Source: a virus
Reading direction: 5' to 3' (one strand)
Virus record (IMG/VR): IMGVR_UViG_3300018067_000246
Coordinates: 1-29,362 of that record
Length of the DNA stretch: 29,362 bases
Part shown: piece by piece, positions 3,159 to 24,705 of the stretch
How the letters are laid out: the number at the start of each line of letters is the position of its first letter
Position numbering within the stretch: the first letter of the stretch is position 1
Program-made: the position numbers and the translations under genes
The notes under the pieces: generated by a model
Told to the model about the DNA's origin: nothing
Seen by the model: only the letters and a program-made list of their open reading frames with translations
The model's database searches: none

Positions 3159-3617
3159 ATGACGCAGAACGGCACCGCGAACGGCGCCGTCCGCCGCTCC
3201 CGCTTCGCCGACGGCTCGGCCGTCAAGCTCGCCCTCTCGGAGGGGGACTGGGTGCTCGTCCGGGCCGAGCTGACCTTCGGGCAGCAGCGGCGCCTCGCTG
3301 CCGCCGGGCTGACCGGCGTGGACGCCACCGCCGCCGGCGGCGACCGGCTGCGGGTCGACCTGGCCGCCTTCGACATCGAGAAGCTCTGCACCTGGGTCAT
3401 CGACTGGTCGTTCACGGACGGGGACGGGAACCACATCGTGCTGACCCGGGAGCGCATCGAGGCGCTGACCCCGGAGACGGCGAAGGAGATCGCCGACGCC
3501 TTGGACGCCCACATCGAGGCGCAGGCGGCAAAAAAAGGCCCGGGGGCGCCTGGCACCAGCAGACCCGCAGCGACCTCGTCGTCTGCAAAGCGTTCGGCTG
3601 GAGCTGGCGCGAGCTGA
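3159..3617 (+). CDS. Tail assembly chaperone, short form (gpG-like)
   Basis: The 152-residue zero-frame product starts at ATG 3159 behind AGGAGG (3147-3152). The body is soluble and mixed alpha/beta; text such as 'IEKLCTWVIDWSFTDGDGNHIVLTRERIEALTPETAKEIADALD' (shown in parts) has the look of tail chaperones that precede the tape measure. After residue 126 the zero-frame continuation is a low-complexity Ser/Ala/Gly tail, as expected when the informative C-terminus lies in the -1 frame. In lambda the equivalent gpG binds the tape measure and recruits tail tube subunits, then leaves the finished tail. Confidence 0.75.
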   Translation: MTQNGTANGAVRRSRFADGSAVKLALSEGDWVLVRAELTFGQQRRLAAAGLTGVDATAAGGDRLRVDLAAFDIEKLCTWVIDWSFTDGDGNHIVLTRERIEALTPETAKEIADALDAHIEAQAAKKGPGAPGTSRPAATSSSAKRSAGAGAS

Positions 3618-6169: not shown

Positions 6170-7350
6170 CCACCACCGTCCGCACCACCACCCTGGAGGT
6201 CTACGTCCACGACGGGGCCGAGTGGCAGTACGACACGACCGCCTACGCCGTCTCCTGCTCGTTCGGCTTCGACCAGCGGTTCGCGGAGGCCACGGTGCGG
6301 CGCACCGGGGGCGGGCTGATCGCCGTCAACTACTGGAGCCCGGTCGAGATCAAGCTCGGGTGCACCCCCGGCGCCGGCGCCGCCACCCGCTTCAAGGGCT
6401 ACGTCGTGCCCGTGGAGAACGCCGTCTACCCCATCGACAGCGTCCTCACCTGCAAGGGGGTGCTCTACCGCGCCCAGTGGGTGCGCAACCAGACCCCCGG
6501 CGGCACCGTCCTGGCCGAGCCCCCCACCGGCGCCCCGGACGAGGCCCAGGTGCAGGCCATCCTCACCGCCTGCGCCGTGCCCTACACCGCCGGGAACATC
6601 GCCGGCACGGGCAAGGCCCTGGGCAGCGAGTTCTTCGACTTCGACAACCCCACCGTCCCCGGCCCCTTCACCTGGGGCGAGGGCGCGTCCGGGCTGGACT
6701 ACATCGAGCAGCTCGACGCGGTGAGCGTCCCGGACGACGCCTCCGGGCGGTTCCGCACCTTCGAGACCCTGGGGGGCGACGTCTTCCGCATCCCCATGGC
6801 CACCGCCCCGGCGGCCACCCCGGACTTCTCGTTCACGGAGGGGGTGGACGTCTTGGAAGCCCGGCTCACCCGCGATCCGGCCGGCGCCGCCAACCGGGTG
6901 ACCGTCACCGGCGCGCCCACGCCCCTGGGCGGGAGCGTGCCCGGCGTGGAGGGCCTGGATGTGTACCGTTTCACCGCCGGCACCAGCGCGGCGCCCTACC
7001 TGCCCCCCGGGCTGCCCAACGGCCCGGACGGCTACCCCGCGCTGACCGCCACCTTCGCCTCGCCGCTGATCGAGAAGGCGCTGGTGGTCGACCCCGACGT
7101 GGCCGGCGACGTCCTCAGCTGCGAGGCGGTCGCCGCCTTCCTCCTGCAGGAGCACAACGCGGTGCTGGACACCCTCGAGTTCGCCACCCCGCGGGACGAC
7201 CTGCTGGGGCCCGGGCAGACCATCCACCTGCACAGCCCCCGGCTGGCCGTGACCGACCCCGACCAGCACTACTGGCTTCAACGGTTGGAGATCACCCTGG
7301 ACGAGCGGGGCGCGTTCACCCAGAAGCTGACCTGCTTGAGGCGCTCCTGA
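6166..7350 (+). CDS. Baseplate/tail hub-like protein
   Basis: GTG 6166 overlaps the previous TGA. The product has 394 residues. The C-terminal 60 residues (a helix EAVAAFLLQEHNAVLDTLEF, then 'LLGPGQTIHL' and 'YWLQRLEITLDERGAFTQKL') resemble the end of phage hub proteins of the gpD/gp44/Tal type, where 'pGd-v-v' and 'yxvxxvxxxld..G.f' recur. The N-terminal half is beta-rich. It would close the tail tip and nucleate tail assembly on the tape measure. The assignment rests on order and this weak motif. No peptidase domain is fused. Confidence 0.5.
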   Translation: MTTTVRTTTLEVYVHDGAEWQYDTTAYAVSCSFGFDQRFAEATVRRTGGGLIAVNYWSPVEIKLGCTPGAGAATRFKGYVVPVENAVYPIDSVLTCKGVLYRAQWVRNQTPGGTVLAEPPTGAPDEAQVQAILTACAVPYTAGNIAGTGKALGSEFFDFDNPTVPGPFTWGEGASGLDYIEQLDAVSVPDDASGRFRTFETLGGDVFRIPMATAPAATPDFSFTEGVDVLEARLTRDPAGAANRVTVTGAPTPLGGSVPGVEGLDVYRFTAGTSAAPYLPPGLPNGPDGYPALTATFASPLIEKALVVDPDVAGDVLSCEAVAAFLLQEHNAVLDTLEFATPRDDLLGPGQTIHLHSPRLAVTDPDQHYWLQRLEITLDERGAFTQKLTCLRRS

Positions 7351-7351
7351 G

Positions 7352-8059
7352 GTGGTCGATACGGTCGGCCCGCTGGCGACGATGTGGCGCAGCGTCTACC
7401 GCAAGGCGTCCGAGGCGGCCGCGGTGCGGATGGCCGACCTGCTGCGCGACCACGTCTACCTGTTCCACCGGGACGCCGGGGGCGGGGGCGGCGCCGGCTG
7501 GGTGCTGCTGGCCGACCGCACCCTGGCCGCCGCGGAGGAGGTCTTCTTCACCGGCATCGCCCAGACGTACCGCGACCTCCGGATCGTGCTCGACGGGCGG
7601 GCCACCGGCACGGGGGTGGCCTCCGGCGACGTGCGGATGCAGCTCGGCTCGGCCGCTCTGGGCGGGGGCGTCGACACGGCGAACACCGCCTACCGCTCCA
7701 CGCTGCACTACGCCCAGCTGGGGAGCGACAGCCACGGGCTGGGCGCCGCCGCCGGGGGCACGCAGAACCGGGACTACTACGCGCTGGTGGGCAGCGTCCC
7801 GGGCGAGCTGGCCACCGACGCCGGCGCCACCGGGGTGATCGACCTCACCCTCTACCACTACACCCTGACCGACCGCCACAAGCGCTTCTTCGCGCTCTGC
7901 ACCCTCACCGGCGACCAGACGAAGGGGGCGCAGACCCGCCACGCCGCCGGGGAGTGGCGCAGCACCGCCGCCGTGACTCGGGTGAACCTCTACGCCCCCA
8001 GCGGCGACGGCTGGGCGGCCGGCACCCGGGCCCGCTTGTACGGCTGGACCGACGGCTAG
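7352..8059 (+). CDS. Minor tail protein, unknown
   Basis: This 235-residue protein starts at GTG 7352, one base after the hub gene stop. It is beta-rich and Ala/Gly-rich with short polar loops (TNTAYRSTLHYAQLGSDSHG-like text), consistent with a structural protein at the tail tip. No domain is recognised. It lies between the hub and the tail fibre, so it may be an adaptor or baseplate protein. Confidence 0.5.
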   Translation: MVDTVGPLATMWRSVYRKASEAAAVRMADLLRDHVYLFHRDAGGGGGAGWVLLADRTLAAAEEVFFTGIAQTYRDLRIVLDGRATGTGVASGDVRMQLGSAALGGGVDTANTAYRSTLHYAQLGSDSHGLGAAAGGTQNRDYYALVGSVPGELATDAGATGVIDLTLYHYTLTDRHKRFFALCTLTGDQTKGAQTRHAAGEWRSTAAVTRVNLYAPSGDGWAAGTRARLYGWTDG

Positions 8060-11866: not shown

Positions 11867-12661
11867 GTGAGCGAGGTCGTGCCCGGCGTCTGGTTCCCCA
11901 TGGATACCGTGACCGCCTACGACCCGCTCCGGGGCGGCTACGCCTTCCTCGACCGGACGGACGGGGGCGCCACGTACCACTGCGGCGCCGACCTCAACGG
12001 CGGGGACGGCGGGGACGGGGATCTGGGCGCCGCCCTGCGGTTCCCCGTCGCCGGCGAGGTGGTCTACGTGGGCCGCTGGAACGGCTACAGCACGGGCTAC
12101 GGGAACCACGTCTGGCTCCGGCTCGTCACCGGCGACTACCTGCACTACTGCCACTGCGCCAGCCTCGAGCTGGGCGAAGGGGCGGTCGGCCAGGCGGGGG
12201 ACGTCGCGGCCCGGGTCGGCAAGTCCGGTTTTCAAACCTGGGCCCACTGCCACTTCGAAGTGAAACGGGAGGACCCGGCGCTGGCGGGGTACGACTACTG
12301 GCCCTACGGACAGAGCGCGGACTACGTGCGGCAGCACTACGTGCGGCCGGCGGACTGGTGGAACGAGCTGCTGGCCTGGTGGGCGAACCAACCGGAGGTG
12401 GACGTGAGCATCTTAACCGGCGCGCAGACCGCGGCGGTGCAGGCCGTGATGTGGGGCGAGTACCCGTTCAACCCGGACGCCGCCATCGCCGCGTCCTGGC
12501 GGGACGAGTGGCGCCGCGGCGCGTGGCGGGGGCGGGCGGTCAGCTCGGAGCAGCTCGTCCCCGAGGACACCGTCGAGGGCAAGCCGGCCGGCGCCTACCA
12601 GCTCTTTGAACTGGGCGTGTGTGTTTGGTTACCGGGAGAACCCGCCTCGTGGAACGGCTAG
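11867..12661 (+). CDS. Endolysin, M23 (LytM-type) peptidase
   Basis: The start is GTG 11867; the product has 264 residues. The M23 zinc-peptidase signature is complete: HxxxD at H38/D42 (YHCGADLNG) and HxH at H127/H129 (AHCHFE), with GNHVWLRL strands between them. It would cleave peptidoglycan cross-bridges during lysis. The C-terminal ~100 residues are Trp-rich and may bind the wall. The last 18 codons (12605-12661) are recoded with AT-ending codons, unlike the rest of the gene, and duplicate the protein sequence encoded at 13168-13224. They appear to have been delivered by the HNH element that follows. The stop shares CTAG with the convergent HNH gene. Confidence 0.85.
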   Translation: MSEVVPGVWFPMDTVTAYDPLRGGYAFLDRTDGGATYHCGADLNGGDGGDGDLGAALRFPVAGEVVYVGRWNGYSTGYGNHVWLRLVTGDYLHYCHCASLELGEGAVGQAGDVAARVGKSGFQTWAHCHFEVKREDPALAGYDYWPYGQSADYVRQHYVRPADWWNELLAWWANQPEVDVSILTGAQTAAVQAVMWGEYPFNPDAAIAASWRDEWRRGAWRGRAVSSEQLVPEDTVEGKPAGAYQLFELGVCVWLPGEPASWNG

Positions 12662-13167
12662 CGCCGAGCGCCGCTGCACAGACGCGAGACGTATTTCTCG
12701 GTCAACCCGTACTCCGCGGCGAGGACACGCTGGCGCTCGCCGGTCTTGAACCGACGACGAAGGTCCGCCACCTCGACATCGGCCAGCCGGGCACGGCTGT
12801 TCCGTTGCCCGACGGAGAACCCCGGCGGCTTAGCCGACCGCCCCTTGTCGATGCAGTCCCGCCAATTGTCGGCGATCGTGCCGACGCGCAGATGCGCAGG
12901 ATTGCAACAGGCCCGCACATCGCAGGTATGCATCAGGATCGCCGGCCACGGGGGCAGGTCATTGCCATGCAGCAGCCAGCTCACCCGATGAACGTACTCC
13001 ACGGTACGCCCACCCACGCTCATCTGCCCATAGCCGTTGCGAGTCGACCCCTTCCACAGCCAGCACGCATCCGGGCCGCCCCGGTCATCAACCCGACGCC
13101 AGAAGCGATCAGGGAGGGTGGGCGAGGCGTAGGAAAACCAAGGTGCCACGTGGATATTGTACTGGAC
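12605..13167. mobile_element. HNH homing element with recoded endolysin 3' end
   Basis: The left end is the point where endolysin codons become AT-ending (TTT GAA ... TTA ... GGA GAA). The right end is the base before the displaced original 3' end (13168). The element holds an 18-codon replacement C-terminus plus the complete minus-strand HNH gene and its -10 hexamer. The two C-termini agree at 15 of 18 residues but at only 32 of 54 nucleotides (hand count). The pattern is that of a homing endonuclease which replaces the end of its target gene with a version it cannot cut. Boundaries are inferred from codon use and the duplication. Confidence 0.7.
12658..13149 (-). CDS. HNH homing endonuclease
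   Basis: With start GTG 13149 the product has 163 residues. Text in order: CWLWKGSTRNGYGQMSVGGR, YVHRVSWLLHG, HTCDVRACCNPAHLRVGTIADN, then a C-terminal helix-turn-helix (ADLRRRFKTGERQRVLAAEYG, LTEKYVSRLCSG). This is the common phage HNH_3-type endonuclease plus DNA-recognition tail. The start is supported by a TACAAT hexamer (13156-13161) exactly 6 nt upstream, the leaderless layout seen elsewhere here; the longer frame to 13389 has no coding character upstream. GC content is lower than in the neighbours, fitting recent acquisition. It lies antisense to the flanking late genes. Confidence 0.82.
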   Translation of the reverse strand: MAPWFSYASPTLPDRFWRRVDDRGGPDACWLWKGSTRNGYGQMSVGGRTVEYVHRVSWLLHGNDLPPWPAILMHTCDVRACCNPAHLRVGTIADNWRDCIDKGRSAKPPGFSVGQRNSRARLADVEVADLRRRFKTGERQRVLAAEYGLTEKYVSRLCSGARR

Positions 13168-13224
13168 TTCGAGGCGGGGTGCTGCGTCTGGCTGCCCGGC
13201 GAGTCGGCGAGCTGGAACGGGTAG
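13168..13224 (+). pseudogene. Displaced original 3' end of the endolysin gene
   Basis: Eighteen codons plus TAG encode FEAGCCVWLPGESASWNG, nearly identical to the present endolysin end (FELGVCVWLPGEPASWNG), using GC-ending codons like the rest of the endolysin. It has no start or RBS of its own and is followed at once by the RBS of the next small gene. It is best read as the ancestral gene end left behind when the HNH element inserted. Confidence 0.75.
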
Positions 13225-13233
13225 GAGGGCGAC

Positions 13234-13386
13234 GTGATCGAGCCGAGCCTGCGGATGGTGTTCCTCGTGGTCGCCGCGATCCTGTTCGCCCTCGCCGCGC
13301 TCTACGTGCCGCCGGCCCCGCCCCGGTTCTCGTTCACGGCCGCCGGCTTGTTCTTCCTGACGGTGAGTTTCCTCTTCGCCGGGTAG
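13234..13386 (+). CDS. Small two-helix membrane protein, holin/antiholin candidate
   Basis: Fifty residues from GTG 13234, with RBS GGAGGG (13224-13229). Two hydrophobic segments (MVFLVVAAILFALAALYV and FTAAGLFFLTVSFLFAG) are separated by a PPAPPR turn. It originally followed the endolysin directly, before the HNH element intervened, so it belongs to the lysis cassette. With the CxxC membrane protein upstream it makes two candidate holins, or a holin/antiholin pair. It is too short for most gene finders. Confidence 0.65.
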   Translation: MIEPSLRMVFLVVAAILFALAALYVPPAPPRFSFTAAGLFFLTVSFLFAG

Positions 13387-13404
13387 CACGCGAGTTATGC
13401 GCTG

Positions 13405-13620
13405 TTATGGTGCGCAACTTAATGCGGCGAGTGCCTCGATGGCGTCCCGGCGCCGCAGGAAATGCTCGCCGAGCGGCACCCCATCAGCCGGCTTCGCCCG
13501 CCACGGGCGCCCGCCGGCGGCGAAGCGATGCACCCACCCGAGCCACGTCTCGCCCCGGTAGACCTTCCAGTGGCTCCCGCCGCCGGGAACCTGCCAGAGC
13601 CACACCGGCTCGTCAGGCAT
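13405..13620 (-). CDS. Hypothetical protein, leftward early operon
   Basis: The 71 residues start MPDEPVWLWQVPGGGSHW and are rich in Trp, Gly and Arg (WKVYRGETWLGWVHRF). The N-terminal strands could form a small beta barrel, with a C-terminal helix (FLRRRDAIEALAAL). It overlaps the upstream gene's stop by 8 bp and is the last gene of the leftward operon; its stop faces the lysis cassette. Function unknown. Confidence 0.55.
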   Translation of the reverse strand: MPDEPVWLWQVPGGGSHWKVYRGETWLGWVHRFAAGGRPWRAKPADGVPLGEHFLRRRDAIEALAALSCAP

Positions 13621-14371: not shown

Positions 14372-14703
14372 CGGAGGTCCCAGCCGCCGGAGCCCGGCGC
14401 GAATTGCTCGTCGTCGTCGGGTTCGCTGGCCGGCGGGGGATCGGCGGCGGCGAGGGGCACGTAGTACATGGCGTGCCCGTCCAGGTGGAAGTGCTTGTGC
14501 CCCGGAAAGTCCCGCTCCTCGGGGTGGGCGTGGTAGACGTACTCGTCGCTCCCGAGGCGCCAGCGGTGGTAGTGGGCGCGGGGGTGCGGCGTGCGCTGGG
14601 GCGGCGCCCCGTCGAACACCACGGGCTCGGTGTCCAGCACCCCGGCGAGGGCCGAGAGCGCCTCCGCCTGGGCTTCGATGGCCGCGAGCCGTTCGTTTGA
14701 CAT
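14368..14703 (-). CDS. Hypothetical His-rich protein
   Basis: With start ATG 14703 (MSNERLAAIEAQAEAL) the product has 111 residues; a longer frame to 14769 exists but this start has the duplicated 22-bp leader. A helical N-terminus is followed by a histidine-rich region (HYHRW, VYHAHPEER, GHKHFHLDGHAMYY) that could bind metal, then an acidic tail. No family recognised. Confidence 0.55.
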   Translation of the reverse strand: MSNERLAAIEAQAEALSALAGVLDTEPVVFDGAPPQRTPHPRAHYHRWRLGSDEYVYHAHPEERDFPGHKHFHLDGHAMYYVPLAAADPPPASEPDDDEQFAPGSGGWDLR

Positions 14704-14722
14704 CTGGAACCCCGTTTCTTGC
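14701..14722 (-). repeat. 22-bp duplicated leader, copy 2
   Basis: This is identical to 13808-13829 and ends in the ATG of the gene at 14703. The copies are about 890 bp apart in the same operon, each directly before a start codon. Confidence 0.85.
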
Positions 14723-14767
14723 TTGCTAAGGCGGAAGATGATGCGCATCTTAATGTCGTCACCGGTC

Positions 14768-14800
14768 ACCGGCCGGAGCCCTATTACCGCTCCGGCCGGT
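14768..14800 (-). terminator. Strong hairpin, possible U-poor terminator
   Basis: ACCGGCCGGAGC and GCTCCGGCCGGT are perfect 12-bp arms around a 9-nt loop, beginning 13 nt beyond the stop of the annealing-protein gene (14813). No U-run follows on the minus strand, so it may be a U-independent terminator or an mRNA-stabilising hairpin that sets relative expression of the genes further left. Confidence 0.5.
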
Positions 14801-14812
14801 TTCCGATAACAA

Positions 14813-15619
14813 CTACTTCCCGCTCGAGCGCGCCGCGGCCCCGGCCCTGGCCTCCAGCCGGCGCTTCGTCTCCCGGCTCCAGTCGACCTGGGGCTGCAGC
14901 GGCGAGCCGTCGGCCGGCGGCCCCCCGGGCGCTCCGGCGGCGGGGACGAACAGGTTGGCCGCCCGGGCCTCCCCGATGCGCTGGTGCTTCACCCGTTCCA
15001 CCTGCGTCCGGGTGTACTCCGTCCCGTCCAGCGTGATGGTGTCCTCCTCGGCCGCGCTCGGCGCGGGCGCTGACGCGGGGAGACGCGCCGGAACAGGGCG
15101 TGGCCCGGTTGGCGGGCCGAAACTCGCAGGACGGGCATTCTCGTGCGCCTGGGCGGGCTCCTCGTGCGCAGCGCCGGCGGGCCCCAGCTCCTCGAACGCC
15201 ACGGCGCCGACGTTGAGGAGCGTCCTCAAGGCACGCGAGACCGCTCGGGTGCTTGCCATTCGGATGAGGTGGGGCAGGATGCCCCGGCCGACGGACGCGG
15301 GGGAGGCGTCCCCGATGTCGCTCGCCCGGCGCAGCACCCGCCCCTCCTCCGGGTGGAAGACGGTCACCGTGGCCGAGACGACGCACGTCTGGCCGTTCTC
15401 GCCGGTGGGCAGCTGCTCGATCTTCGTGTCGACGTCGAAGTAGCCGCCGCTGAGCTGGTGCAGGCCGTCCAGCAGCCCGTCGCTGAGGATGAAGTCCCGG
15501 CCCAACTGCTGGGTGACGAACTTCTTGTCGATCCGCACCTCGGGGAACCGGTACGCCTCCTCGGCGAGCAGCTCGCCCGTCTCGCGGTCCACCCGCTCCG
15601 CCAGGTCAGTCGCGGCCAT
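14813..15619 (-). CDS. Probable single-strand annealing protein (Rad52/DdrA-like)
   Basis: The 268 residues have a conserved block at about 35-145 (IDKKFVTQQLGRDFILSDGL, then GRVLRRASDIGDASPASVG, then HLIRMASTRAVSRALRTL and NVGAVAFEEL). The GDASP...RMAxTRAxxRALR pattern is shared by many phage and plasmid proteins that I associate with the Rad52/DdrA-type annealing fold. The C-terminal third is Pro/Ala-rich and probably disordered, with a short folded piece (TITLDGTEYTRTQVERVKHQR). It would anneal complementary single strands during phage recombination and genome circularisation, perhaps with the Cas4-like nuclease at 21119. The family assignment is from motif memory and needs a profile search. 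Confidence 0.55.
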   Translation of the reverse strand: MAATDLAERVDRETGELLAEEAYRFPEVRIDKKFVTQQLGRDFILSDGLLDGLHQLSGGYFDVDTKIEQLPTGENGQTCVVSATVTVFHPEEGRVLRRASDIGDASPASVGRGILPHLIRMASTRAVSRALRTLLNVGAVAFEELGPAGAAHEEPAQAHENARPASFGPPTGPRPVPARLPASAPAPSAAEEDTITLDGTEYTRTQVERVKHQRIGEARAANLFVPAAGAPGGPPADGSPLQPQVDWSRETKRRLEARAGAAARSSGK

Positions 15620-15743
15620 CGCGCCGCCCCCCCTTCTTCGTCGCCTTCGCGGGCATGGCCACCAGCGGCCCGTCCATGACCCATTCCACCACCCGCCCGT
15701 CCGGCAGCACCAGCCGGCACGCCACCCCGCCCTCGTTCTTCAT
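15606..15743 (-). CDS. Small protein at head of leftward operon
   Basis: The 45 residues are MKNEGGVACRLVLPDGRVVE, then a W-x-MDGPLVAMPAKATKKGG segment and a basic end. The beta-hairpin-like text and GC-rich codons suggest a real gene. The ATG at 15743 lies 6 nt after a TATGAT hexamer, so it is probably translated from a leaderless mRNA. It overlaps the annealing-protein start by 14 bp. Function unknown. Confidence 0.55.
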   Translation of the reverse strand: MKNEGGVACRLVLPDGRVVEWVMDGPLVAMPAKATKKGGRRDGRD

Positions 15744-15810
15744 GTATCTATCATACCATTTTGGTATTACGATTGCATTGAAATAGTGGCACTGTGGCTA
15801 TACTGCCGGT
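15744..15810. promoter_or_regulatory. Divergent leaderless promoters of the leftward operon and RHH gene
   Basis: This 67-bp AT-rich island separates two start codons. Leftward: TATGAT (15750-15755 on the minus strand) is 6 nt from ATG 15743. Rightward: TTGAAA (15778-15783), 15 bp, TATACT (15799-15804), 6 nt, ATG 15811. Both spacings place transcription start at or next to the start codon. The composition contrast with the surroundings is strong. Confidence 0.65.
15753..15767. promoter_or_regulatory. Operator candidate for the RHH protein
   Basis: ATACCA, TTT, TGGTAT is a perfect 6-bp inverted repeat with a 3-nt spacer. It overlaps the leftward -10 hexamer and lies upstream of the rightward -35. 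RHH regulators usually bind short inverted repeats next to their own promoter, so autorepression plus control of the recombination operon is the simplest reading. Confidence 0.55.
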
Positions 15811-16023
15811 ATGCCGAAAGACGACGAGACGGTCATCTCGATCCGCTTCCCCAACCCCCTGGCGGCGGCGCTGAAGGGGCTCGCCAAGGACGAGCACCGC
15901 AGCGTGAACGGGACGGTGCTCGAGGCGGTGGAGCGGTACCTGCGTACCCGGCGGGGCCGGCCATCACGCGGCGGCCGGGAGGGCCAGGGGGGGCAGATCG
16001 GCCCAGCGGAGGACGAGGGGTGA
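15811..16023 (+). CDS. Ribbon-helix-helix (Arc/MetJ-type) regulator
   Basis: In this 70-residue protein residues 8-45 (VISIRFPNPLAAALKGLAK, then SVNGTVLEAVERYLR) match the RHH fold: one beta-strand, helix A, an S-x-N turn, helix B. The C-terminal 25 residues are Gly/Arg-rich and overlap the antisense end of the integrase. ATG 15811 is 6 nt after a -10 hexamer. The likely role is autoregulated repressor of the divergent promoter. No toxin gene is adjacent, so a toxin-antitoxin role is less likely. Confidence 0.75.
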   Translation: MPKDDETVISIRFPNPLAAALKGLAKDEHRSVNGTVLEAVERYLRTRRGRPSRGGREGQGGQIGPAEDEG

Positions 16024-17724
16024 GGCGGTCGCTGGTTCTTGTGTAGTGAACGACAAACCGTTCTTACCACAATCACCGGGAGACAGCGTCTGCGTCAGCG
16101 CCACCCGCAGCCCGTTCGGGTACGGCTCCGCCGGCCGGCGCACCTCCGCCGCCACCCCCAGTGCCCGCACCAACTCCTGGCGCTTCGCCGGCGCCAGCGC
16201 CGCCGCCAGGAGGGCCACCTCCCCGCCCGCCCCCAGCGCCTCGGCCATCCCCCGCACCAGCGCCTGCGCGGCCGCCAGCCGGTCGCGCTCCGCGTGCCAG
16301 ACCGCCCGCCGCCCCAGGATCGCCGCCCGGCTGCGCTCCAACGAGGCCACCTCCGCCGCCTTCCGGTTCAGGAGCGCCACGACCCCCGCCTGGGCCTCCG
16401 GGGTCAGCCGCCCCAGCGCCGCCTGCAGGTTCCCCTGCTCCCGCCGGCTCTCCCGCAGCGCCGCCTCGATCCCCGCCACCTCGCCCGCCGTCGGGTCGGC
16501 GTCCGCCAGCGCCGCGAAGTGCTCGCCGACGTGCTCCGGCCGGGCCAGCAGCGCCGTCGCGTGGCCCCAGACGAGACCGTCCAGCACGTCCACCAGGATG
16601 CTGTTCGTGCACTGCCGGCCGTCGGGCCGCACGGCCACGCAGCGGTACATCGCCCCCCGGTGCCGGTTGGCGTTGGCCACCACCATCACCCGCCCCAGCT
16701 CGGCCGCGTCCTGGCGGCGGCAGTAGGCGCAGCGCACCAGCCCCCCGCGCAGGAGGGCCGCGTCCGGCGCCCGGTTGTTGCGGGACGCCTGCGCCCGGTT
16801 CTGGGGCAGGCGCCGCTGCACCGCCTCCCAGTCCTCCCGGGACACGAGCGCCGGGACCGTGCCCGCCGGGAGGGGGTGCTGCTCCGCCTCCGGGCGGTAG
16901 CGCCACCCCGGCTTGCCGTTGGGCGTGCGGCGCCGCTCGTGGCGCCACCCGGTGGCCTCGCCGGTATACCGGGGGTTCACCAGCCGGTCGCGCACGGTCA
17001 CGTACGACCAGGGGTTGCTGCGCCCGCTGGGGGCGGTCACGCCCTCCCGGGTCAGCGCCGTGGCGATGCCCCGCAGCGTCTGCCCGGCGAGGTAGTCGGC
17101 GTAGATGCGCCGCACGACCCGCGCCGTGGCGGGCTCCTCGGCGTAGCCGACGATGATCTCGTCGCCCCGGTGGTTGCGCCCGAACACGAACCGGTAGCCG
17201 TACAGCGCCCTGGGTGCCGGGGGCAGCCGGCCGTGCTTGGTCAGGCTGTCCAACCGGCCCCGCATCGTGCGCTCCTTGATCGCCTCCGCCTCCAGCTCGG
17301 CGGCGAAGGCCATCGCACCCAGGGAGAACCGGCCGATGGCCGTGTCCTCGAACCGCTCCTTGACGAACTCTAGCCCGCACCCGTTCAGCCGCAGCTCGGG
17401 CAGCAGGTGCGCCGGCTGGTACTGGTTGCGGAAGACCCGGTCGACCTTGAAGACGACCAGGGTGTCCGCCTCGCCCTCACGCAGCCGGCGCCGGACGTCC
17501 GTCAGGACCGGCCGCGCGCCCAGTTCCTCCTCGATGGCCGTCTCGGCCTCCTCGTAGACGGCGAGCAGGTGGAGGTGCTCCCGGTCGCAGTACGCGCGGA
17601 CCCCCGCCTCCTGGGTGTCCAGCGAGCAGTTCTCCTCCTGGCCCGGGCTGGAGACGCGCACGTAGCCGATGGCGGATCTCCTGGTACGCCGCGGCGGGCT
17701 CGAGCCCCGGCCGCTCATCCGCAA
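15964..17724 (-). CDS. int: Large serine recombinase, phage integrase
   Basis: The 586 residues begin with a resolvase catalytic domain: IGYVRVSSPGQ (catalytic Ser25), then SLDTQ, and the VFKVDRVFRN strand. A recombinase domain follows (about 190-300; GRSNPWSYVTVRDRLVNPRYTGE), then a zinc ribbon (VRCAYCRR ... YRCVAVRPDGRQC), a coiled coil (ESRREQGNLQAALGRL) and a C-terminal tail. It would join attP and attB without host factors. The last ~31 codons run through the attP candidate and antisense to the RHH gene. The first 18 residues lie in a shadow of an upstream frame; initiation nearer AIGYVRV is possible, because AGGAG (17675-17679) precedes it. Confidence 0.9.
   Translation of the reverse strand: MRMSGRGSSPPRRTRRSAIGYVRVSSPGQEENCSLDTQEAGVRAYCDREHLHLLAVYEEAETAIEEELGARPVLTDVRRRLREGEADTLVVFKVDRVFRNQYQPAHLLPELRLNGCGLEFVKERFEDTAIGRFSLGAMAFAAELEAEAIKERTMRGRLDSLTKHGRLPPAPRALYGYRFVFGRNHRGDEIIVGYAEEPATARVVRRIYADYLAGQTLRGIATALTREGVTAPSGRSNPWSYVTVRDRLVNPRYTGEATGWRHERRRTPNGKPGWRYRPEAEQHPLPAGTVPALVSREDWEAVQRRLPQNRAQASRNNRAPDAALLRGGLVRCAYCRRQDAAELGRVMVVANANRHRGAMYRCVAVRPDGRQCTNSILVDVLDGLVWGHATALLARPEHVGEHFAALADADPTAGEVAGIEAALRESRREQGNLQAALGRLTPEAQAGVVALLNRKAAEVASLERSRAAILGRRAVWHAERDRLAAAQALVRGMAEALGAGGEVALLAAALAPAKRQELVRALGVAAEVRRPAEPYPNGLRVALTQTLSPGDCGKNGLSFTTQEPATASPLVLRWADLPPLALPAAA
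16032..16079. other. attP candidate for the serine integrase
   Basis: Half-site blocks are symmetric around 16055/16056: GGT (16034-16036), TTGTG (16039-16043), GAACG (16048-16052) pair exactly with CGTTC (16059-16063), CACAA (16068-16072), ACC (16075-16077). The centre dinucleotide is AA. Size, interrupted dyad symmetry with outer GGT/ACC, non-palindromic core and position beside int are those of large-serine-integrase attP sites. It is much more AT-rich than the surroundings. The dyad looks complete, suggesting attP and not attL or attR. Confidence 0.7.
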
Positions 17725-17797
17725 CCTCCTTGGCGACGTCGAGCAGCGGCGCGTACAACTCGGCCAGGATGGCGCGCAAGCGGTCGTCCGGCGTCAT
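17477..17797 (-). CDS. Small hypothetical protein upstream of int
   Basis: ATG 17797 begins MTPDDRLRAILAELYAPLL, then DVAKEVADERPGLEPAAAYQEI, a convincing helical protein for about 50 residues. The frame then continues open for 83 codons inside int, where the text (Gly/Pro/Arg runs) looks like shadow. Either the true product is read to the 17477 stop, or the stop was lost, or the two were once separated by a cleaner junction. A promoter with TTGACA lies 7 nt plus 29 bp upstream. Function unknown. Confidence 0.4.
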   Translation of the reverse strand: MTPDDRLRAILAELYAPLLDVAKEVADERPGLEPAAAYQEIRHRLRARLQPGPGGELLAGHPGGGGPRVLRPGAPPPARRLRGGRDGHRGGTGRAAGPDGRPAPAA

Positions 17798-17804
17798 GCC
17801 CGGG

Positions 17805-17833
17805 AGTCTGCGCAGACGATGCGCCCGTGTCAA
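17805..17833 (-). promoter_or_regulatory. Promoter of the int operon
   Basis: On the minus strand: consensus TTGACA (17828-17833), 17 bp, CAGACT (17805-17810), then 7 nt to ATG 17797. This again implies a leaderless or nearly leaderless transcript. Confidence 0.5.
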
Positions 17834-17910
17834 CGTTTTTTGCGCCACAGCGCACGGATGATGGCATTTCGTCACCATCGTAGCAGGCCGACCGGCCCGG
17901 TGGGGAGGAC

Positions 17911-18399
17911 TCAGTCGGGCGGCGGGGGCTGCGGGCCGGGCGCCGTGGGGATGCGGACGTAGAGCACCACCGAGCCGTCCGGGCGGTACTTCTGCAGCAC
18001 CGTCGCGCCCGGGGGCAGCGTGAGCAGGGAGGTCGGTCCGACCGCCGCCCCGGGCGTCGTCGGGGCGTACTGCGCCACGGCCTCCGCGGCGGTGCTCTCC
18101 AGCTCGGCCTCGGCCGCCTCCCCCGCGAGCGCCTCGGCCGCCAGTTCCGCGTCGGCGGCGGACAGCTCGGGGATCGGCGCGCAGCCCCGCAGCTGGCGGG
18201 GGGTGACGCCCAGGGCCCGGGCCAGGCGCTCGATGGTCTCGTCCTCCGGGCGGGGCCGGCTGGCCTTCTCCAGGCCGGAGATGATCTGCCGGGGCACGCC
18301 GGCGGCCTGGCTCAGCTGCTCCTGGTTGATGTCGCGGTGCGCCCGCAGCACGCGCAGCCGCTCGGCCAACGCCCGGCTCCGCCGGGCCTGTGCGGCCAA
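17911..18399 (-). CDS. XRE-family repressor, CI-like
   Basis: In this 162-residue protein residues 10-70 form a lambda-repressor-type HTH (ALAERLRVLRAHRDINQEQL, SQAAGVPRQIISGLEKASRP, then ETIERLARALGVTPRQL). The C-terminal half is Ala/Glu-rich and ends with a short beta domain (GATVLQKYRPDGSVVLYVRI); no S24 peptidase dyad is visible, so RecA-triggered self-cleavage is not supported. The start is TTG 18399 behind GGGGAGGAG. Divergent from the early rightward operon, it is the likely lysogeny repressor. Confidence 0.75.
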   Translation of the reverse strand: MAAQARRSRALAERLRVLRAHRDINQEQLSQAAGVPRQIISGLEKASRPRPEDETIERLARALGVTPRQLRGCAPIPELSAADAELAAEALAGEAAEAELESTAAEAVAQYAPTTPGAAVGPTSLLTLPPGATVLQKYRPDGSVVLYVRIPTAPGPQPPPPD

Positions 18400-18450
18400 C
18401 CGGGCCTGTCGCTCCTCCCCGTCGATGGCGGTCTCCTCTCCCCCGCCCCT

Positions 18451-18479
18451 AGTGTTGTCCGGGAGTCACCAAACGTCAA
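18451..18479 (-). promoter_or_regulatory. Leftward promoter of the XRE repressor
   Basis: Minus strand: TTGACG (18474-18479), 17 bp, AACACT (18451-18456). The -35 is good and the -10 is poor, as expected for an activator-assisted repressor-maintenance promoter. Confidence 0.4.
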
Positions 18480-18587
18480 GGGTCTGCGGGGCCGAGGCCC
18501 ACTCCTCACGCCGCCCTCACGTCAGTAGCGGGGCTGCTGCCGATGGTGACGGTTTAACATCAACTACTTCATGGGGCGCTAAAAGTG

Positions 18588-18617
18588 TTGACGACTGGTA
18601 AACGGCGGCACTAGAGT
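18588..18617 (+). promoter_or_regulatory. Rightward early promoter
   Basis: TTGACG (18588-18593), 18 bp, TAGAGT (18612-18617). It fires toward the Cro-like gene and leaves a leader of about 100 nt, unlike the leaderless promoters elsewhere. Confidence 0.6.
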
Positions 18618-18629
18618 CCCCGCCACGAC

Positions 18630-18705
18630 GGCGGTGCCGGGAGCGCACCGCCCCGACCACCGAGGGACGCGCAGCAGCGGGGGCCGTGGCCGGCCCCCCA
18701 CGGCC
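18630..18705 (+). promoter_or_regulatory. Two leader hairpins before the Cro-like gene
   Basis: Stem 1: GGCGGTGC (18630-18637) with GCACCGCC (18645-18652). Stem 2: GGCCGTGG (18682-18689) with CCACGGCC (18698-18705). Both stems are perfect. The Shine-Dalgarno AGGAGG (18706-18711) follows stem 2 immediately, so stem 2 may modulate ribosome access. Confidence 0.5.
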
Positions 18706-18721
18706 AGGAGGGGCGCCGAGG

Positions 18722-19009
18722 ATGACGACGCAGCCAGCTACGCCCGTGGGGTTCGTGCAGCACATGGAGGTGAAGCGGCAGGCGCTCGGGCTCGGGCACG
18801 GCGCCTGGGCGGGGCTGCTGGGGATCGACCGCAGCCTGTGGTACCTGCTGCGGCAGGGGCAGAAGGAACTGTCCATCGCCCTGATCCAGCGGGTGATGCG
18901 GGAGTGGCCGGACGAGTTCGAGCCCTACCTGCGGGACGCCGTGCTGGCGTGGCGCGACCGGGGGCCGGACGGCCCGGACGGCGGGGAGTCGCTCCAGGAG
19001 GCGTGCTGA
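18722..19009 (+). CDS. Cro/CII-like HTH protein
   Basis: ATG 18722 is behind AGGAGG; the product has 95 residues. Residues 12-70 (FVQHMEVKRQALGLGHGAWA, GLLGIDRSLWYLLRQGQ, ELSIALIQRVMREWPDEF) resemble an XRE-type HTH with a recognition helix around DRSLWYLL. It is the first gene of the rightward early operon, opposite the repressor: the Cro position. The end overlaps the next ATG (TGATG). Confidence 0.6.
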   Translation: MTTQPATPVGFVQHMEVKRQALGLGHGAWAGLLGIDRSLWYLLRQGQKELSIALIQRVMREWPDEFEPYLRDAVLAWRDRGPDGPDGGESLQEAC

Positions 19010-19254
19010 TGCCCCCCCGGCCCGCCCGGCCGGTGCCGCCGACCAACGCCCAGCGCATCGCCGACGCCCTCGTCCACTTCGAGATCGGCCTGCGCACGCA
19101 CAGCGCCCACCTCCCGGTCGACTGGAGCTACGTCGCCTACCGAATGGCCGTGGCCCTGGGCGAGGACGAGTGGGATCGGGACGGCGCCGGCGCGGGCGTG
19201 ATCGAGCTGGGCCCGGCCACCCGCCACGTCCTGCGCCGGGGGGGGGCGTCGTGA
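19009..19254 (+). CDS. Hypothetical protein
   Basis: The 81 residues include a basic/proline N-terminus (PPRPARPVPPTNAQR) and a helix-rich middle (IADALVHFEIGLRTHS, SYVAYRMAVALGEDEWD). ATG overlaps the previous TGA and the stop overlaps the next GTG, so it is clearly an operon gene. No family. Confidence 0.55.
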   Translation: MPPRPARPVPPTNAQRIADALVHFEIGLRTHSAHLPVDWSYVAYRMAVALGEDEWDRDGAGAGVIELGPATRHVLRRGGAS

Positions 19255-19397
19255 ACGTCGGCGGGGTGGTGTTCTGGATTGTGGTGGCGGCGGCGGTGTG
19301 CGGTGCCGTCATCATCGTCGGGCTCATCGGGGTCGTCCTCGCGGCCGGCCAGGATCTGCCGACCGAGGAGCGCGACGACCTGGGGCGCTGGCGCTGA
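19251..19397 (+). CDS. Small single-pass membrane protein
   Basis: The 48 residues run from GTG 19251: a hydrophobic helix (VVFWIVVAAAVCGAVIIVGL, then IGVVLAAG) and a charged tail DLPTEERDDLGRWR. Overlaps at both ends (GTGA and TGATG) show tight coupling. A single-pass early phage membrane protein could serve exclusion or membrane attachment of replication; no evidence decides. Confidence 0.55.
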   Translation: MNVGGVVFWIVVAAAVCGAVIIVGLIGVVLAAGQDLPTEERDDLGRWR

Positions 19398-20023
19398 TGC
19401 CCGCCCGCCGCGAGTACACCGCCGAGGAGCTGGCCGAGCGGCTCGTGCGGCAGCGGGAGCAGGCCCGGCTGCGTATGGCCGTGCTACGTGCGCGTAACCG
19501 TTCGCGTAACGCCGCGAACGTTCGCGTAACGCCGGCCGTCTCTGGTGGGGCCGGTGACGCGCACCCCCCCATACCCCCCTCGTCTCTCTCTATCTCTAAA
19601 GAGATAGAGAAGGTCGGCCGGTTGCTGGCGCCGTTGGGCGCCCGGGGCTACGAGCACCAGCCGGATCTCTGGGCAGAGCTGGCGGCGACCTACCCGGCGG
19701 CGCGCCTCTCGGTCGAGGCGTACAAGATCGCGTCCTGGTTCAAGGACGCGGCGCAGCGCAGCCGCAAGGTGAAGTCGTGGCCCGCCTTCCTCGACAACTG
19801 GCTCAAGAAGGCGCAGCGCGACGCGACCGCGCCGCCGACCGCCCACGGGATGGCATACCAGATGCCGTCGCCCGGGAAGCCGGCGGACCCCGAGCCGGTG
19901 CTGCCGGACGGCGCCGTGCTCCAGATGATCGACCCGGCGGAGGCGCGCCGTGCGCTGCTCCAGGCCAAGCGGATGACGCTGCCCGAGAAGTTGGCACTGG
20001 TGCGGAATGGGAGGCAGCAGTGA
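19397..20023 (+). CDS. Candidate phage replication protein with origin inside the gene
   Basis: In this 208-residue protein the N-terminal residues 5-40 are charged and helical (EYTAEELAERLVRQREQARL). A linker (about 45-70) carries the iteron-like DNA repeats. The C-terminal domain is helical (LWAELAATYPAARLSVEAYK, ASWFKDAAQRSRKVKSWPAF, LDNWLKKAQRD), resembling replication-accessory text in which a 'W..FL.NWL' helix follows the linker. There is no helicase or primase motif. The DNA repeats inside the linker argue for an initiator of the lambda O type. Function is inferred from position and repeats. Confidence 0.45.
   Translation: MPARREYTAEELAERLVRQREQARLRMAVLRARNRSRNAANVRVTPAVSGGAGDAHPPIPPSSLSISKEIEKVGRLLAPLGARGYEHQPDLWAELAATYPAARLSVEAYKIASWFKDAAQRSRKVKSWPAFLDNWLKKAQRDATAPPTAHGMAYQMPSPGKPADPEPVLPDGAVLQMIDPAEARRALLQAKRMTLPEKLALVRNGRQQ
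19487..19534. repeat. Iteron-like repeats, candidate replication origin
   Basis: CGTTCGCGTAACGCCG occurs exactly at 19499-19514 and 19519-19534 (20-bp period), with a diverged copy CGTGCGCGTAAC at 19487-19498. The exact copies are read in different codon frames (RSRNA against VRVTP), so DNA and not protein is being repeated. An AT-richer palindromic tract follows 50 bp downstream. Confidence 0.6.
19587..19610. repeat. Pyrimidine/purine inverted repeat
   Basis: TCTCTATCTCT, AA, AGAGATAGAGA: perfect 11-bp arms with a 2-nt spacer in a low-GC patch, encoding SISKEIE. One strand is mostly pyrimidine up to the centre and mostly purine after it. It may be part of the origin (easily melted or extruded) or a transcription/translation hairpin. 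Confidence 0.75.
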
Positions 20024-20253
20024 GCGAGGCCCTTGAGTGGCGGACGCTGTACGAGCGGCGCCAGACGCTGTTCCTGGACGGTGTGGCGGTGGGGGACTTC
20101 TACCCCACCAGCTCGGGCGTCTTCCGGGTGCGGCTCTGGCCCGAAGACCGGCTCCAGGGCGGCCGCGAGCGATTGGTGCTGACAGAGGAGTCGGCGCGCA
20201 CGATGCTGCTGGGCATGCTCGAGCGCCTGCGCCGGGACGAGGGCGCGGCGTGA
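20020..20253 (+). CDS. Hypothetical protein
   Basis: The 77 residues start at GTG 20020, overlapping the previous stop. Strands (TLFLDGVAVGDFYPT, GVFRVRLWPED) are followed by a C-terminal helix (TEESARTMLLGMLERLRRDE), a small alpha/beta domain. Coupled on both sides. Function unknown. Confidence 0.55.
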   Translation: MSEALEWRTLYERRQTLFLDGVAVGDFYPTSSGVFRVRLWPEDRLQGGRERLVLTEESARTMLLGMLERLRRDEGAA

Positions 20254-20468
20254 GACCACCCCGCTGGGGCCTCGACGTCTCCTGGGGCGTCGTCCTCGGC
20301 GCCGTGCGTTTCCGCGACCCCTTCACCGGGGAGTGGCACGAGGTGGAGGGCCGCTGGCTGCCGTCACCCAACGAGAAGACGGACCTGCGTTGGATGCGGA
20401 GCCGCGCCGGCGCAGCGCGACACCGGGGGGCATCACTCGGCGCCGGCGGCCCACCAGCCCGCGCCTGA
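20250..20468 (+). CDS. Hypothetical protein
   Basis: The 72 residues run from GTG 20250 (overlapping GTGA). The N-terminal half is strand-rich (RWGLDVSWGVVLGAVRFRD, GEWHEVEGRWLP); the C-terminal third is low-complexity Arg/Ala/Gly. Last gene before an apparently acquired HNH-type gene with different base composition. Function unknown. Confidence 0.45.
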   Translation: MRPPRWGLDVSWGVVLGAVRFRDPFTGEWHEVEGRWLPSPNEKTDLRWMRSRAGAARHRGASLGAGGPPARA

Positions 20469-20480
20469 TCGGAGATCGAG

Positions 20481-21122
20481 TTGCTCGAGTATGGGGCTTC
20501 AACCTCGGGGCACCAGTGCCGCAAATGCAGGCGGGTCTATCCGCCCGAGCAGGTGCCCTATCAGTTCACGCGGCGACGACGCCAGGTGCGTCTCCATTCG
20601 CATGCGAATGGAGACAACCGGGGCAGGCTCGGGCCGCTCGAGTATCTCGATGTCTGCAATCGCTGTCTCCAGATCCAGCGGGACGAGATCAAGCAACGCA
20701 ACCGCTTCCTTGCCAAGGCGAGACGAACCTTGAACTGGCATGCAACCAAGTTCGGCTTCCGACCGGCGGCGTTCGCTTCGAAATACGGGTGGGATGTGAA
20801 GCAAATGGCACACGACTGCGAGCACGCAGCGAAGAACGGGTGCCCGTACTGCCACATGGCCTTCGCGGAGATGGCAAACGGCCTCCGGGACATCACCCTC
20901 GATGTCTACGACCCCCACGCGGAGCCCTACTACACAAACACCAGGTGGGTGTGTAACACCTGCAACAGCAAGAAGCAGGATATGCCCATAGGGGACTGGC
21001 ATCAGGTGTGTTTGGCGTTCAAGGTGCAGCGGGACTTTCTGCTGCTCCTCGATCAGAAGGCGCCAGTTGTCCCAGCGGCGCAGCAACTCCCGCTGTTTGA
21101 GATGGCGGGGTCGGCCGGGTGA
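20481..21122 (+). CDS. HNH-type zinc endonuclease (homing or phage nuclease)
   Basis: With start TTG 20481 behind GGAG (20471-20474) the product has 213 residues. CxxC pairs: CRKC (about residue 13), CNRC (about 60), CPYC (about 121) and CNTC (about 161). The segment CPYCHMAFAEMANG ... ITLDVYDPHAEPYY ... WVCNTCNSKK is an HNH/zinc-finger core. GC content is visibly lower than in the neighbours (AAG/GAA/CAA codons common), pointing to acquisition. A 26-bp palindrome lies in its coding sequence. It may be a free-standing homing endonuclease or a replication or packaging nuclease. Confidence 0.6.
   Translation: MLEYGASTSGHQCRKCRRVYPPEQVPYQFTRRRRQVRLHSHANGDNRGRLGPLEYLDVCNRCLQIQRDEIKQRNRFLAKARRTLNWHATKFGFRPAAFASKYGWDVKQMAHDCEHAAKNGCPYCHMAFAEMANGLRDITLDVYDPHAEPYYTNTRWVCNTCNSKKQDMPIGDWHQVCLAFKVQRDFLLLLDQKAPVVPAAQQLPLFEMAGSAG
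20590..20615. repeat. 26-bp perfect palindrome in HNH-type gene
   Basis: Arms GTCTCCATTCGCA and TGCGAATGGAGAC, no spacer. It lies across codons for RLHSHANGDN. A zero-loop palindrome of this length is unlikely by chance and might be a protein-binding or recombination site. Confidence 0.85.
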
Positions 21123-21808
21123 GCGACCGGCAGCACTTCAAGCTGGCGCCTTCCGACTTCGCCTACCTCTGGGAGGAGTGCCGGCGCTGCTACTACGAGG
21201 CGCGGCATGGACTGGGGCGGCGCCCGGACACGCCGTTCCCAGCCATCTTCAACCGGATCGAGGACGCCTTCTGCGCCCACCTTGAGGGCTGCGACCCGGC
21301 CCGGATGTCGCCGCTGCTGCCGGCGGGCCGGGTGACCTGTCGCCAGCGACTGGTGACGTCTGCGCACATCAAGGTGCCCGGCCATCAGGCGACGGTCTCC
21401 GTGTCCGGGCGCATGGACGCCTGGGCGCGGTTCAGCGACGGCGGGTTCGGCGTGATCGACTTCAAGGTGGCCGCCCACAGTGACGACCTGGCCACGCGCT
21501 ACCAGCGCCAACTCTGGTCGTACGCCTACGCGCTCGAGCACCCGGTCACCGGGACGCTCCCTTGGTCGCCCATCTCGCATCTGGGGCTATTTGTCCTTGA
21601 GTCGCGCGGCGTGGCCGATCTGGCCTTTCAGGAGCAGAAGTGGCTGCTGCTCCACATGGAGCCGTTGTGGTGCCCCGTTGAGCCGGATCAGGGAGCGTTC
21701 CTGCGCTTCCTGGGGGAGGTATTGGATGTGCTGGAACTACCCGAACCGCCGCCGCCGAACCCGGCCTGTAAGTTCTGCGCGTACCGCGCGCGGGGCCTGA
21801 CGTCGTGA
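21119..21808 (+). CDS. Cas4/RecB-like PD-(D/E)XK nuclease with Fe-S cysteines
   Basis: This 229-residue protein shows the nuclease motifs D100 (GRMDAW) and D114-x-K116 (GVIDFKV), followed by a QxxxY-like motif (YQRQLWSYAYAL). Cysteines C21, C24 (CRRC) at the N-terminus and C217, C220 (CKFC) at the C-terminus match the split four-cysteine Fe-S cluster of Cas4/AddB-type exonucleases. It probably resects DNA ends to single strands for the annealing protein. No cas1/cas2 or CRISPR array is nearby, so a recombination role is preferred. GTG 21119 overlaps the upstream stop. Confidence 0.75.
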   Translation: MSDRQHFKLAPSDFAYLWEECRRCYYEARHGLGRRPDTPFPAIFNRIEDAFCAHLEGCDPARMSPLLPAGRVTCRQRLVTSAHIKVPGHQATVSVSGRMDAWARFSDGGFGVIDFKVAAHSDDLATRYQRQLWSYAYALEHPVTGTLPWSPISHLGLFVLESRGVADLAFQEQKWLLLHMEPLWCPVEPDQGAFLRFLGEVLDVLELPEPPPPNPACKFCAYRARGLTS

Positions 21809-22233
21809 CCATCCGCTACGTGCGCGTCGACCTGAAGCCGGTGCGGATCGAGACGCGCCACGTCTTCGTCCCGCCGCCCCCGCCGCTGCCCATGCGCGAC
21901 CGGCCAGACCCACCCCCCTCCCCGGCGACCCGGCTCGCCCGGTTTACGGCGAACGAGCGGGCGATTGGCGCGGAACACCGCCGCCGGCGGGCTGCCCTGC
22001 GCGCCGACGCGGCGGACGCGCCCGAAGTCACCCCGGCCGACCTCATCCGGGCGCGCAAGGGGATCGCCGGCTGCTCGCAGCGCGACCTGGCCCGGGAGTA
22101 CGGCTGCTCGCGGAGCATCATCGCGGAGGCCGAGCGGGGCGTGCGGACGCCGCTGCCGGCCATCGCCCGCTGGACGGCAGGCACCCTGGCCGCCCAGGCG
22201 CTGCGGGACGCCGAGGCGGAGGCGGCGTCATGA
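21805..22233 (+). CDS. HTH (XRE-like) DNA-binding protein
   Basis: The 142 residues run from GTG 21805. The N-terminus has a strand-rich piece and a proline run (VPPPPPLPM). The HTH spans about 83-120 (LIRARKGIAGCSQRDLAREY, then GCSRSIIAEAERGVRTPLPA), matching 'R...g.sQ.dLA...G.s...i...E.G...P'. Near the end of the early operon, it could be a late-gene regulator or second repressor. It overlaps neighbours at both ends. Confidence 0.65.
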   Translation: MTIRYVRVDLKPVRIETRHVFVPPPPPLPMRDRPDPPPSPATRLARFTANERAIGAEHRRRRAALRADAADAPEVTPADLIRARKGIAGCSQRDLAREYGCSRSIIAEAERGVRTPLPAIARWTAGTLAAQALRDAEAEAAS

Positions 22234-22592
22234 AGTGGGCCAGTTGGGCGTGGGGCTTCGTGGCCGGCTGCGTGTTGGCGAGCTACGTGATGCTGAGCTG
22301 CAGCGACGGGAACGCCCAGACCGAGGAGGTGGCCGACGCCATCGAGTACGGCATCAGCATGGGGCTGCCGCCGGCCTGGGCGTGGCGGGTCGCGTGGTGC
22401 GAGTCGCGGTACACCAGCGGGGCCTACAACCGGTGGTCGGGGGCGTCGGGGCTCTATCAGTTCATCCCCAGCACCTGGCGGAATACGCCGCAAGGGCGCG
22501 CCGGGATGAGCCCCTTCGACCCCTACGCCAACGCCGCCGCCGCCGCCTGGCTGTACCGTACCGGGGGGCCGGGCCATTGGAGCTGCAGGTAG
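22230..22592 (+). CDS. Lysozyme/transglycosylase-like protein with N-terminal membrane anchor
   Basis: The 120 residues begin with a hydrophobic N-terminus (WASWAWGFVAGCVLASYVML) ending at a Cys in a weak lipobox-like context (LSC), suggesting export or anchoring. A goose-lysozyme/SLT/Rpf-like domain follows: WCESRYTSGAYN (catalytic Glu), GASGLYQFIPSTW, then DPYANAAAAAWLYR. It would cleave the glycan strand. It lies far from the lysis cassette, before packaging genes. It may be a virion or entry muramidase, or an accessory lysin. Confidence 0.75.
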   Translation: MKWASWAWGFVAGCVLASYVMLSCSDGNAQTEEVADAIEYGISMGLPPAWAWRVAWCESRYTSGAYNRWSGASGLYQFIPSTWRNTPQGRAGMSPFDPYANAAAAAWLYRTGGPGHWSCR

Positions 22593-24693: not shown

Positions 24694-24705
24694 GAGAACC
24701 GCACG

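Follow-up and report, generated by a model that had tools for sequence, protein, structure and literature searches.

The lysin locus and its two endings

The lysin described here is encoded on a 29.4-kb IMG/VR contig that also encodes a portal protein, a terminase, a tail fibre and a serine integrase (IMGVR_UViG_3300018067_000246), and whose whole analysed stretch of 29,362 nt is referred to below as the window. A separate feature of this record is found in its large serine integrase gene (window 15964-17724, minus strand), the last ~45 codons of which include an abrupt AT-ending stretch (CTG TCT CCC GGT GAT TGT GGT AAG AAC GGT TTG ...), which may be an att site that overlaps the end of the gene. 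The lysin frame as a whole spans 11867-12661 (Table 1) and contains an M23 peptidase domain; its body has a GC3 of 0.95 and is homologous along its full length to the lysins of the IMG/VR loci L035, L050, L051 and L039.

Table 1. Features of the lysin locus, in window coordinates
Feature	Position	Strand	Remarks
M23-family lysin, native body, codons 1-246	11867..12604	+	GTG start; PF01551 36.4 bits against a cut-off of 28.7
Live substitute 3' end, 18 codons and TAG	12605..12661	+	GC3 9/16 against 0.964 for the phage
Complete 563-bp insert, from the substitute 3' end through the antisense HNH gene to the spacer	12605..13167		One precise block absent from L035/L036
HNH endonuclease gene, 164 aa, ~495 bp	12658..13152	-	GTG start inferred; antisense to the lysin
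Spacer, 15 nt, from HNH start to stranded native end	13153..13167		Not in the empty allele
Stranded native lysin 3' end, 18 codons and TAG	13168..13224	+	Without a start of its own
Small two-TM holin-like gene, normally directly 3' of the lysin	13234..13386	+	GGAGG RBS overlapping the native stop; L035 homologue at 17097-17249

The lysin has two endings, one live and one stranded behind the HNH gene. The live tail (TTTGAACTG...GGCTAG) encodes FELGVCVWLPGEPASWNG and a stop, the stranded tail (TTCGAGGCG...GGGTAG) encodes FEAGCCVWLPGESASWNG and a stop, and the two are identical at 15/18 amino acids and 32/54 nucleotides. Indeed, of all C-terminal pairs anchored at a stop in the window, this one scores highest (91), the best scores in 12 letter-shuffled versions of the window being 50-68, and the similarity is far beyond chance. 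At 12 of the 13 identical residues other than Trp, the two tails use different codons, for example TCG versus AGC and TTA versus CTG. The GC3 is 0.964 for the phage, 1.0 over the 60 codons preceding the junction, 9/16 in the live tail, where exactly seven codons end in A or T, and 16/16 in the stranded tail, and the switch in codon usage is abrupt at codon 247. In an AlphaFold model of the lysin, whose mean pLDDT of 62.5 is too weak to lean on, the junction falls within the last beta hairpin (242-247/250-254). The stop codon of the stranded copy runs into the GGAGG ribosome-binding site of the small downstream gene, as in the uninterrupted relatives, which identifies this copy as the native end. 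A previous sequence-only reading had given the same tail coordinates, the same identities and the seven non-GC-ending live codons, and had assigned GC-ending codons to the stranded copy and the rest of the lysin, all of which was reproduced; its 500-bp insert with an antisense HNH gene held for the gene, while the insert itself measures 563 bp.

The stop codon of the HNH gene overlaps that of the lysin. The gene is recognised by PF13392 HNH_3 (33.5 bits against a cut-off of 24.8) and by PHROG 1872 (E=5e-30), and its product keeps all 22 residues that are invariant among nine aligned members (eight of them phage HNH relatives), including the conserved Zn/catalytic residues, with weak DNA-binding matches in the C-terminal region (HTH_31, E=0.046; phrog_517 HTH, E=0.007). 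The GC3 of the gene is 0.774 versus 0.964 for the phage (P=3e-17), thus the HNH gene and the live tail have a foreign composition in common. The position of its start codon and promoter is uncertain, and neither a sigma-70-like promoter nor a terminator was found around the element. The arrangement is not that of an intron or intein, as the lysin frame stops at a TAG ahead of the antisense gene and an Rfam search of 12400-13500 for an intron or other RNA element gave zero matches at E<=1. On the strand opposite the HNH gene, a 201-aa open frame (12619-13224, plus strand) continues into the stranded tail and is probably a shadow frame of this GC-rich antisense gene.

Uninterrupted relatives and further occurrences

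IMG/VR scans retrieved L035 and L036, which belong to the same phage lineage as the window with about 76% nucleotide identity where alignable; they were picked up with the ORF at 6222-7838 as a query, probably a shadow frame that nevertheless tagged the right DNA. In both, the sequence matching window 12481-12603 adjoins that matching 13185-13329, with no HNH gene between them. Since the two flanks lie side by side there, the block at 12605-13167 can be read as a precise insertion between codons 246 and 247 that includes its own 3' end, in agreement with the earlier proposal that the element had brought its own lysin ending. A relative with a native-type end fused directly to codon 246, also predicted beforehand, was found in L035 (...EGKPAGSWQLFQYGAAVWLPGQSVSWNG and stop), followed by the same small downstream gene. 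Neither outcome named as contrary to that proposal, that is, relatives without the HNH gene carrying both endings or an empty allele ending in the AT-rich version, was seen. The lysin ends of L050 (...FELGVAAWLPGQPVSWNG), L051 (...FELGVACWLEHHPVSWNG) and the more distant L039 (...FESGLLIYKRDGTMSWTG), each followed by a stop, are likewise uninterrupted, and HNH relatives were looked for near the lysins of L035, L036, L050, L051 and L039 and none was found, so that the site is empty in five relatives and the presence of the HNH gene is sporadic.

Compared with the natural end of L035, the stranded tail matches at 39/54 nucleotides and the live tail at 30/54. In protein, the natural allele nearest to the live tail is that of L050 (14/18); the residues FELGV and P of the live tail are common to the lysin ends of L050 and L051, and the stranded tail groups with L035, to which the lysin body too is closest. 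At the protein level, the empty lysins share only 33-48% identity with that of the window, so the window's own ancestor is not directly visible among them. No occupied sister with the same element at the same site was found, and the mobility of the window element is therefore inferred from the empty alleles and from the cultured phages described below. As for other sources of relatives, lysin searches among annotated phages gave weak M23 matches only, scans of genome contigs gave nothing useful, and terminase-based relatives of the window end before reaching the lysin. A further contig, L005 (3300021082_000803), is 99.93% identical to window 14517-25585; it begins 1.3 kb downstream of the element and is thus uninformative on the lysin allele.

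The evidence is stronger for a second occurrence, in cultured phages, than for the window. In the Streptomyces phages Forrest (L165, 2454-3600) and Jada (L185), a macro-domain gene (PF01661, E=5e-4, which is under the cut-off) ends in a substitute tail, followed by an HNH gene, which is gene 171 in Forrest, and then by the native tail; the empty allele in Gilson is gene 168. Natural empty controls are available from the same genus in Gilson (L179) and Emma1919. In particular, Forrest and Gilson are identical at 382/385 positions in the body of the gene and at 692/692 in the native tail and downstream sequence, Forrest's stranded end being 100% identical to Gilson's, and they differ by an insert of 609 bp. 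Forrest's live tail matches the end in Gilson at 28/31 amino acids and 61/93 nucleotides (66%), with different codons at 22/27 residues, and it matches the end of the same gene in Kenrey (L186) at 81/93 nucleotides (87%), whereas the bodies of Gilson and Kenrey are 99% and 70% identical, respectively, to that of Forrest. Both the HNH gene and a native copy are absent from Kenrey, which may thus resemble the donor or be a descendant that was later stripped; whichever its role, these comparisons indicate that the end of Forrest's gene has moved apart from its body. The end of the macro-domain gene is also a hot spot in Gilsonvirus: beside the tail and HNH gene in Forrest and Jada, MeganTheeKilla (L184) has other last few codons and other small downstream genes, and the length of the gene end differs in Phredrick, Moab, Patelgo, Beuffert and Faust.

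The search for similar C-termini bracketing an HNH gene covered 139 HNH genes at 120 loci, drawn from the window, 80 IMG/VR loci, annotated phages and bacterial genomes. Beyond the window it yielded two clear cases, the macro-domain gene of Forrest and Jada and a terminase gene in L061, and a weaker candidate in L127. Shuffled pairings gave nothing comparable except matches at E<=1e-22, which are attributed to loci with several HNH genes. In L061 (1260-4383), the end of a GpA-type terminase large subunit is substituted (...CWWIRQQVGHEEITSIDEMTDLGF...), and a sense HNH gene and an ORF with HNH_repeat and ROS/MucR matches precede the stranded native end (...CWWIRQQIGHEEITSLEEMDELGF...SDYYN and stop). 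The GC3 is 32/46 in the live end, 43/46 in the stranded end and 244/289 in the body; an empty sister of this terminase locus was searched for and none was found. In L127, a 29-nt direct repeat (2956-2984 and 3467-3495, 86%) flanks a sense HNH gene, the upstream gene ending in CAPCREPKKGARRAPAY and the HNH frame continuing into SAPCREPKKGYAR, each before a stop, which makes it a candidate only. Two further matches, L121 (E=0.001) and the RtcB gene of Gordonia phage Miskis (E=0.002), were set aside because control pairings of ends from other loci reach E 2e-4; L093 and L103 were artefacts of self-overlap and L083 consists of tandem HNH paralogues. The bacterial HNH_3 loci, whose flanks are short, gave no case.

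Origin of the inserted block

What is seen directly at the window locus is an insertion exactly between codons 246 and 247, an in-frame substitute end, the native end intact behind it, empty relatives and an intact HNH gene, and the same architecture recurs in three unrelated genes (lysin, terminase, macro-domain). Quite probably, the block at 12605-13167 is a compact mobile element, comprising an HNH homing endonuclease gene and a working, DNA-diverged replacement for the last 18 lysin codons that was most likely captured from this gene in a diverged relative. In such a mechanism, the HNH protein would nick or cut uninterrupted lysin genes near the conserved junction, and repair against an element-bearing genome would copy the element in, with the lysin body as the left arm and the stranded native end together with the downstream gene as the right arm. 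The stranded end at 13168-13224 is probably this right homology arm, a role that would account both for its retention and for the exactness of the insertion. The replacement end would keep the lysin whole and, being diverged, would neither rebuild the target at the left junction nor recombine readily with the native end to drop the element. Indeed, a substitute identical to the native end would do the first and would form a deletable direct repeat, and divergence avoids both.

The divergence of the live tail could have arisen in two ways. The sequence-only reading had called the end synonymously recoded; that it is diverged stands, and its alteration by the element to escape cutting finds no support in the 87% nucleotide match of Forrest's tail to Kenrey or in the FELGV and P residues common to L050 and L051. 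Selective recoding, in which an ordinary copy of the lysin end was altered codon by codon to evade its own nuclease with the protein kept, would explain why nearly all the shareable codons differ. The 12/13 mismatch has P=4e-7 (4.7 expected) when codons are drawn at random according to the usage of the phage, P=1.5e-4 with the usage of the HNH gene, and P=0.03 (8.7 expected) even under uniform usage. Moreover, the live tail breaks six bases kept in all four natural alleles and makes 5-8 synonymous departures at columns conserved in three natural alleles, compared with 0-2 for the fourth natural allele. However, the stranded copy would have had to stay undecayed over the time needed, the live tail has residues in common with natural ends, and in Forrest, where the substitute matches a natural allele, the codon mismatch is as expected from random drawing (P=0.10), so that recoding appears unlikely. 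The undecayed stranded copy implies that the divergence of the live tail is older than the insertion, with no drift in situ. Thus, the substitute end is most simply explained as a captured, diverged natural allele rather than as codons redesigned in place: the resemblance of Forrest's tail to Kenrey and that of the window's live tail to L050 and L051 make capture sufficient and design unnecessary. The 54 nt of the window's live tail are too short to fix its donor.

A passive scar, left when two diverged phages exchanged the lysin end by recombination and an inert or unrelated HNH gene with no role at the site came along, is similarly improbable. Boundaries of genetic exchange in phages often hold nuclease genes (PMC10448857), and the activity of the HNH protein is putative. 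On the other hand, the insertion is exact with both native flanks kept, in the window as in Forrest, three unrelated genes have an HNH gene between their two endings, and the HNH gene in the window is intact. A scenario in which the lysin end was duplicated in tandem on either side of an inserted HNH gene, and the live copy then drifted synonymously, would produce the bracketing by two similar ends and is already contradicted, with hardly any probability left: the unselected stranded copy should decay while the live one saturates, and instead it has a GC3 of 16/16, an intact frame and the codons of a natural allele, codon use shifts sharply at codon 247, and Forrest's stranded end is unchanged from Gilson's. 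A chimera of metagenome assembly, conceivable where a single contig spans the site and L005 starts at 14517, is just as negligible, given that no long word is common to the two ends for misjoining, that both flanks are colinear with L035/L036 and that isolate genomes (Forrest, Jada) have the same architecture.

Relation to known homing systems

The closest parallel to a captured gene end travelling with a nuclease is found in the mORF hybrid genes of fungal mitochondria, described for atp6 of Allomyces macrogynus and for atp6, atp9, cox2 and nad3 of Glomus sp. (PMC3630166). The 3'-end replacement in Allomyces atp6 had already been named as a parallel in the sequence-only reading, and is reported there. 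In both systems an endonuclease ORF lies near the 3' end, a foreign C-terminus is in frame and the native C-terminus is stranded downstream, the native end being closest to relatives and the inserted and native ends being diverged in DNA and similar in protein (PMC3630166). In the phages, the native end is indeed nearer to relatives than the inserted one, with 39/54 versus 30/54 for L035 and 100% versus 66% for Forrest and Gilson. However, mORFs encode LAGLIDADG or GIY-YIG endonucleases of fungal mitochondria (PMC3630166), whereas the phage elements belong to tailed phages and encode HNH proteins, whose gene is antisense to the invaded gene in the window and has the sense orientation in Forrest and L061. 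Given this other nuclease family and other type of genome, the phage element would work like the mORF hybrids without being a member of them.

Among phages, HNH genes outside introns, the splitting of genes, co-conversion and marker exclusion are on record (PMC2988022, PMC10448857). As with the free-standing HNH endonucleases mobA-mobE of T4, the HNH gene of the window is intronless and lies beside essential genes, and homing with co-conversion of flanks is the known mechanism of such enzymes (PMC2988022). In marker exclusion and co-conversion by the endonucleases of T-even and HMU phages, a diverged flank likewise travels with the nuclease and replaces that of the recipient; there the recipient allele is normally replaced, whereas the phage element retains the recipient's native end (PMC2988022). 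Free-standing homing endonuclease genes lie between genes or split one, as in Aeh1 nrdA and T4 topoisomerase (PMC2988022), and an element that brings a substitute 3' end and leaves the native one in place behind it is not described in the passages searched of that source or of PMC10448857. The list of known sites of homing endonucleases as introns, inteins or intergenic spaces was thus incomplete, both for these split genes and for the gene ends replaced by mORFs (PMC3630166). Engineered Cleave-and-Rescue and home-and-rescue drives also pair a nuclease with a functional, DNA-diverged form of an essential gene (PMC7951863, PMC7968924); these are synthetic, with Cas9 and designed recoding, whereas the phage element is natural and the resistance of its substitute end, which its divergence in sequence would fit, is putative. 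No phage case of such gene-end replacement was found in the open-access literature, and a subscription paper might have been missed.

On a wider scale, it appears somewhat more plausible than the contrary that tailed phages carry recurrent home-and-rescue HNH elements, in which a nuclease gene is coupled to a captured, target-resistant 3' end of the invaded gene (lysin, terminase or macro-domain protein), and for whose spread the stranded native end serves as a homology arm, driving a modular exchange of gene ends among phages. If true, this would mean that gene-end replacement by homing endonucleases, described in fungal mitochondria, extends to phages and to nucleases of the HNH type, would illustrate how a nuclease without an intron gains access to essential genes while its host phage survives, and would provide a natural counterpart to the engineered drives as well as a mechanism for phage genes whose ends and bodies differ in ancestry. 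Forrest and Gilson, a cultured and near-identical pair with and without the element, open homing and immunity to direct testing. A different combination is observed in Acinetobacter phage APK44 (L173), where one HNH gene interrupts the DNA polymerase I gene and a second one follows it, gene splitting and end invasion thus occurring together.
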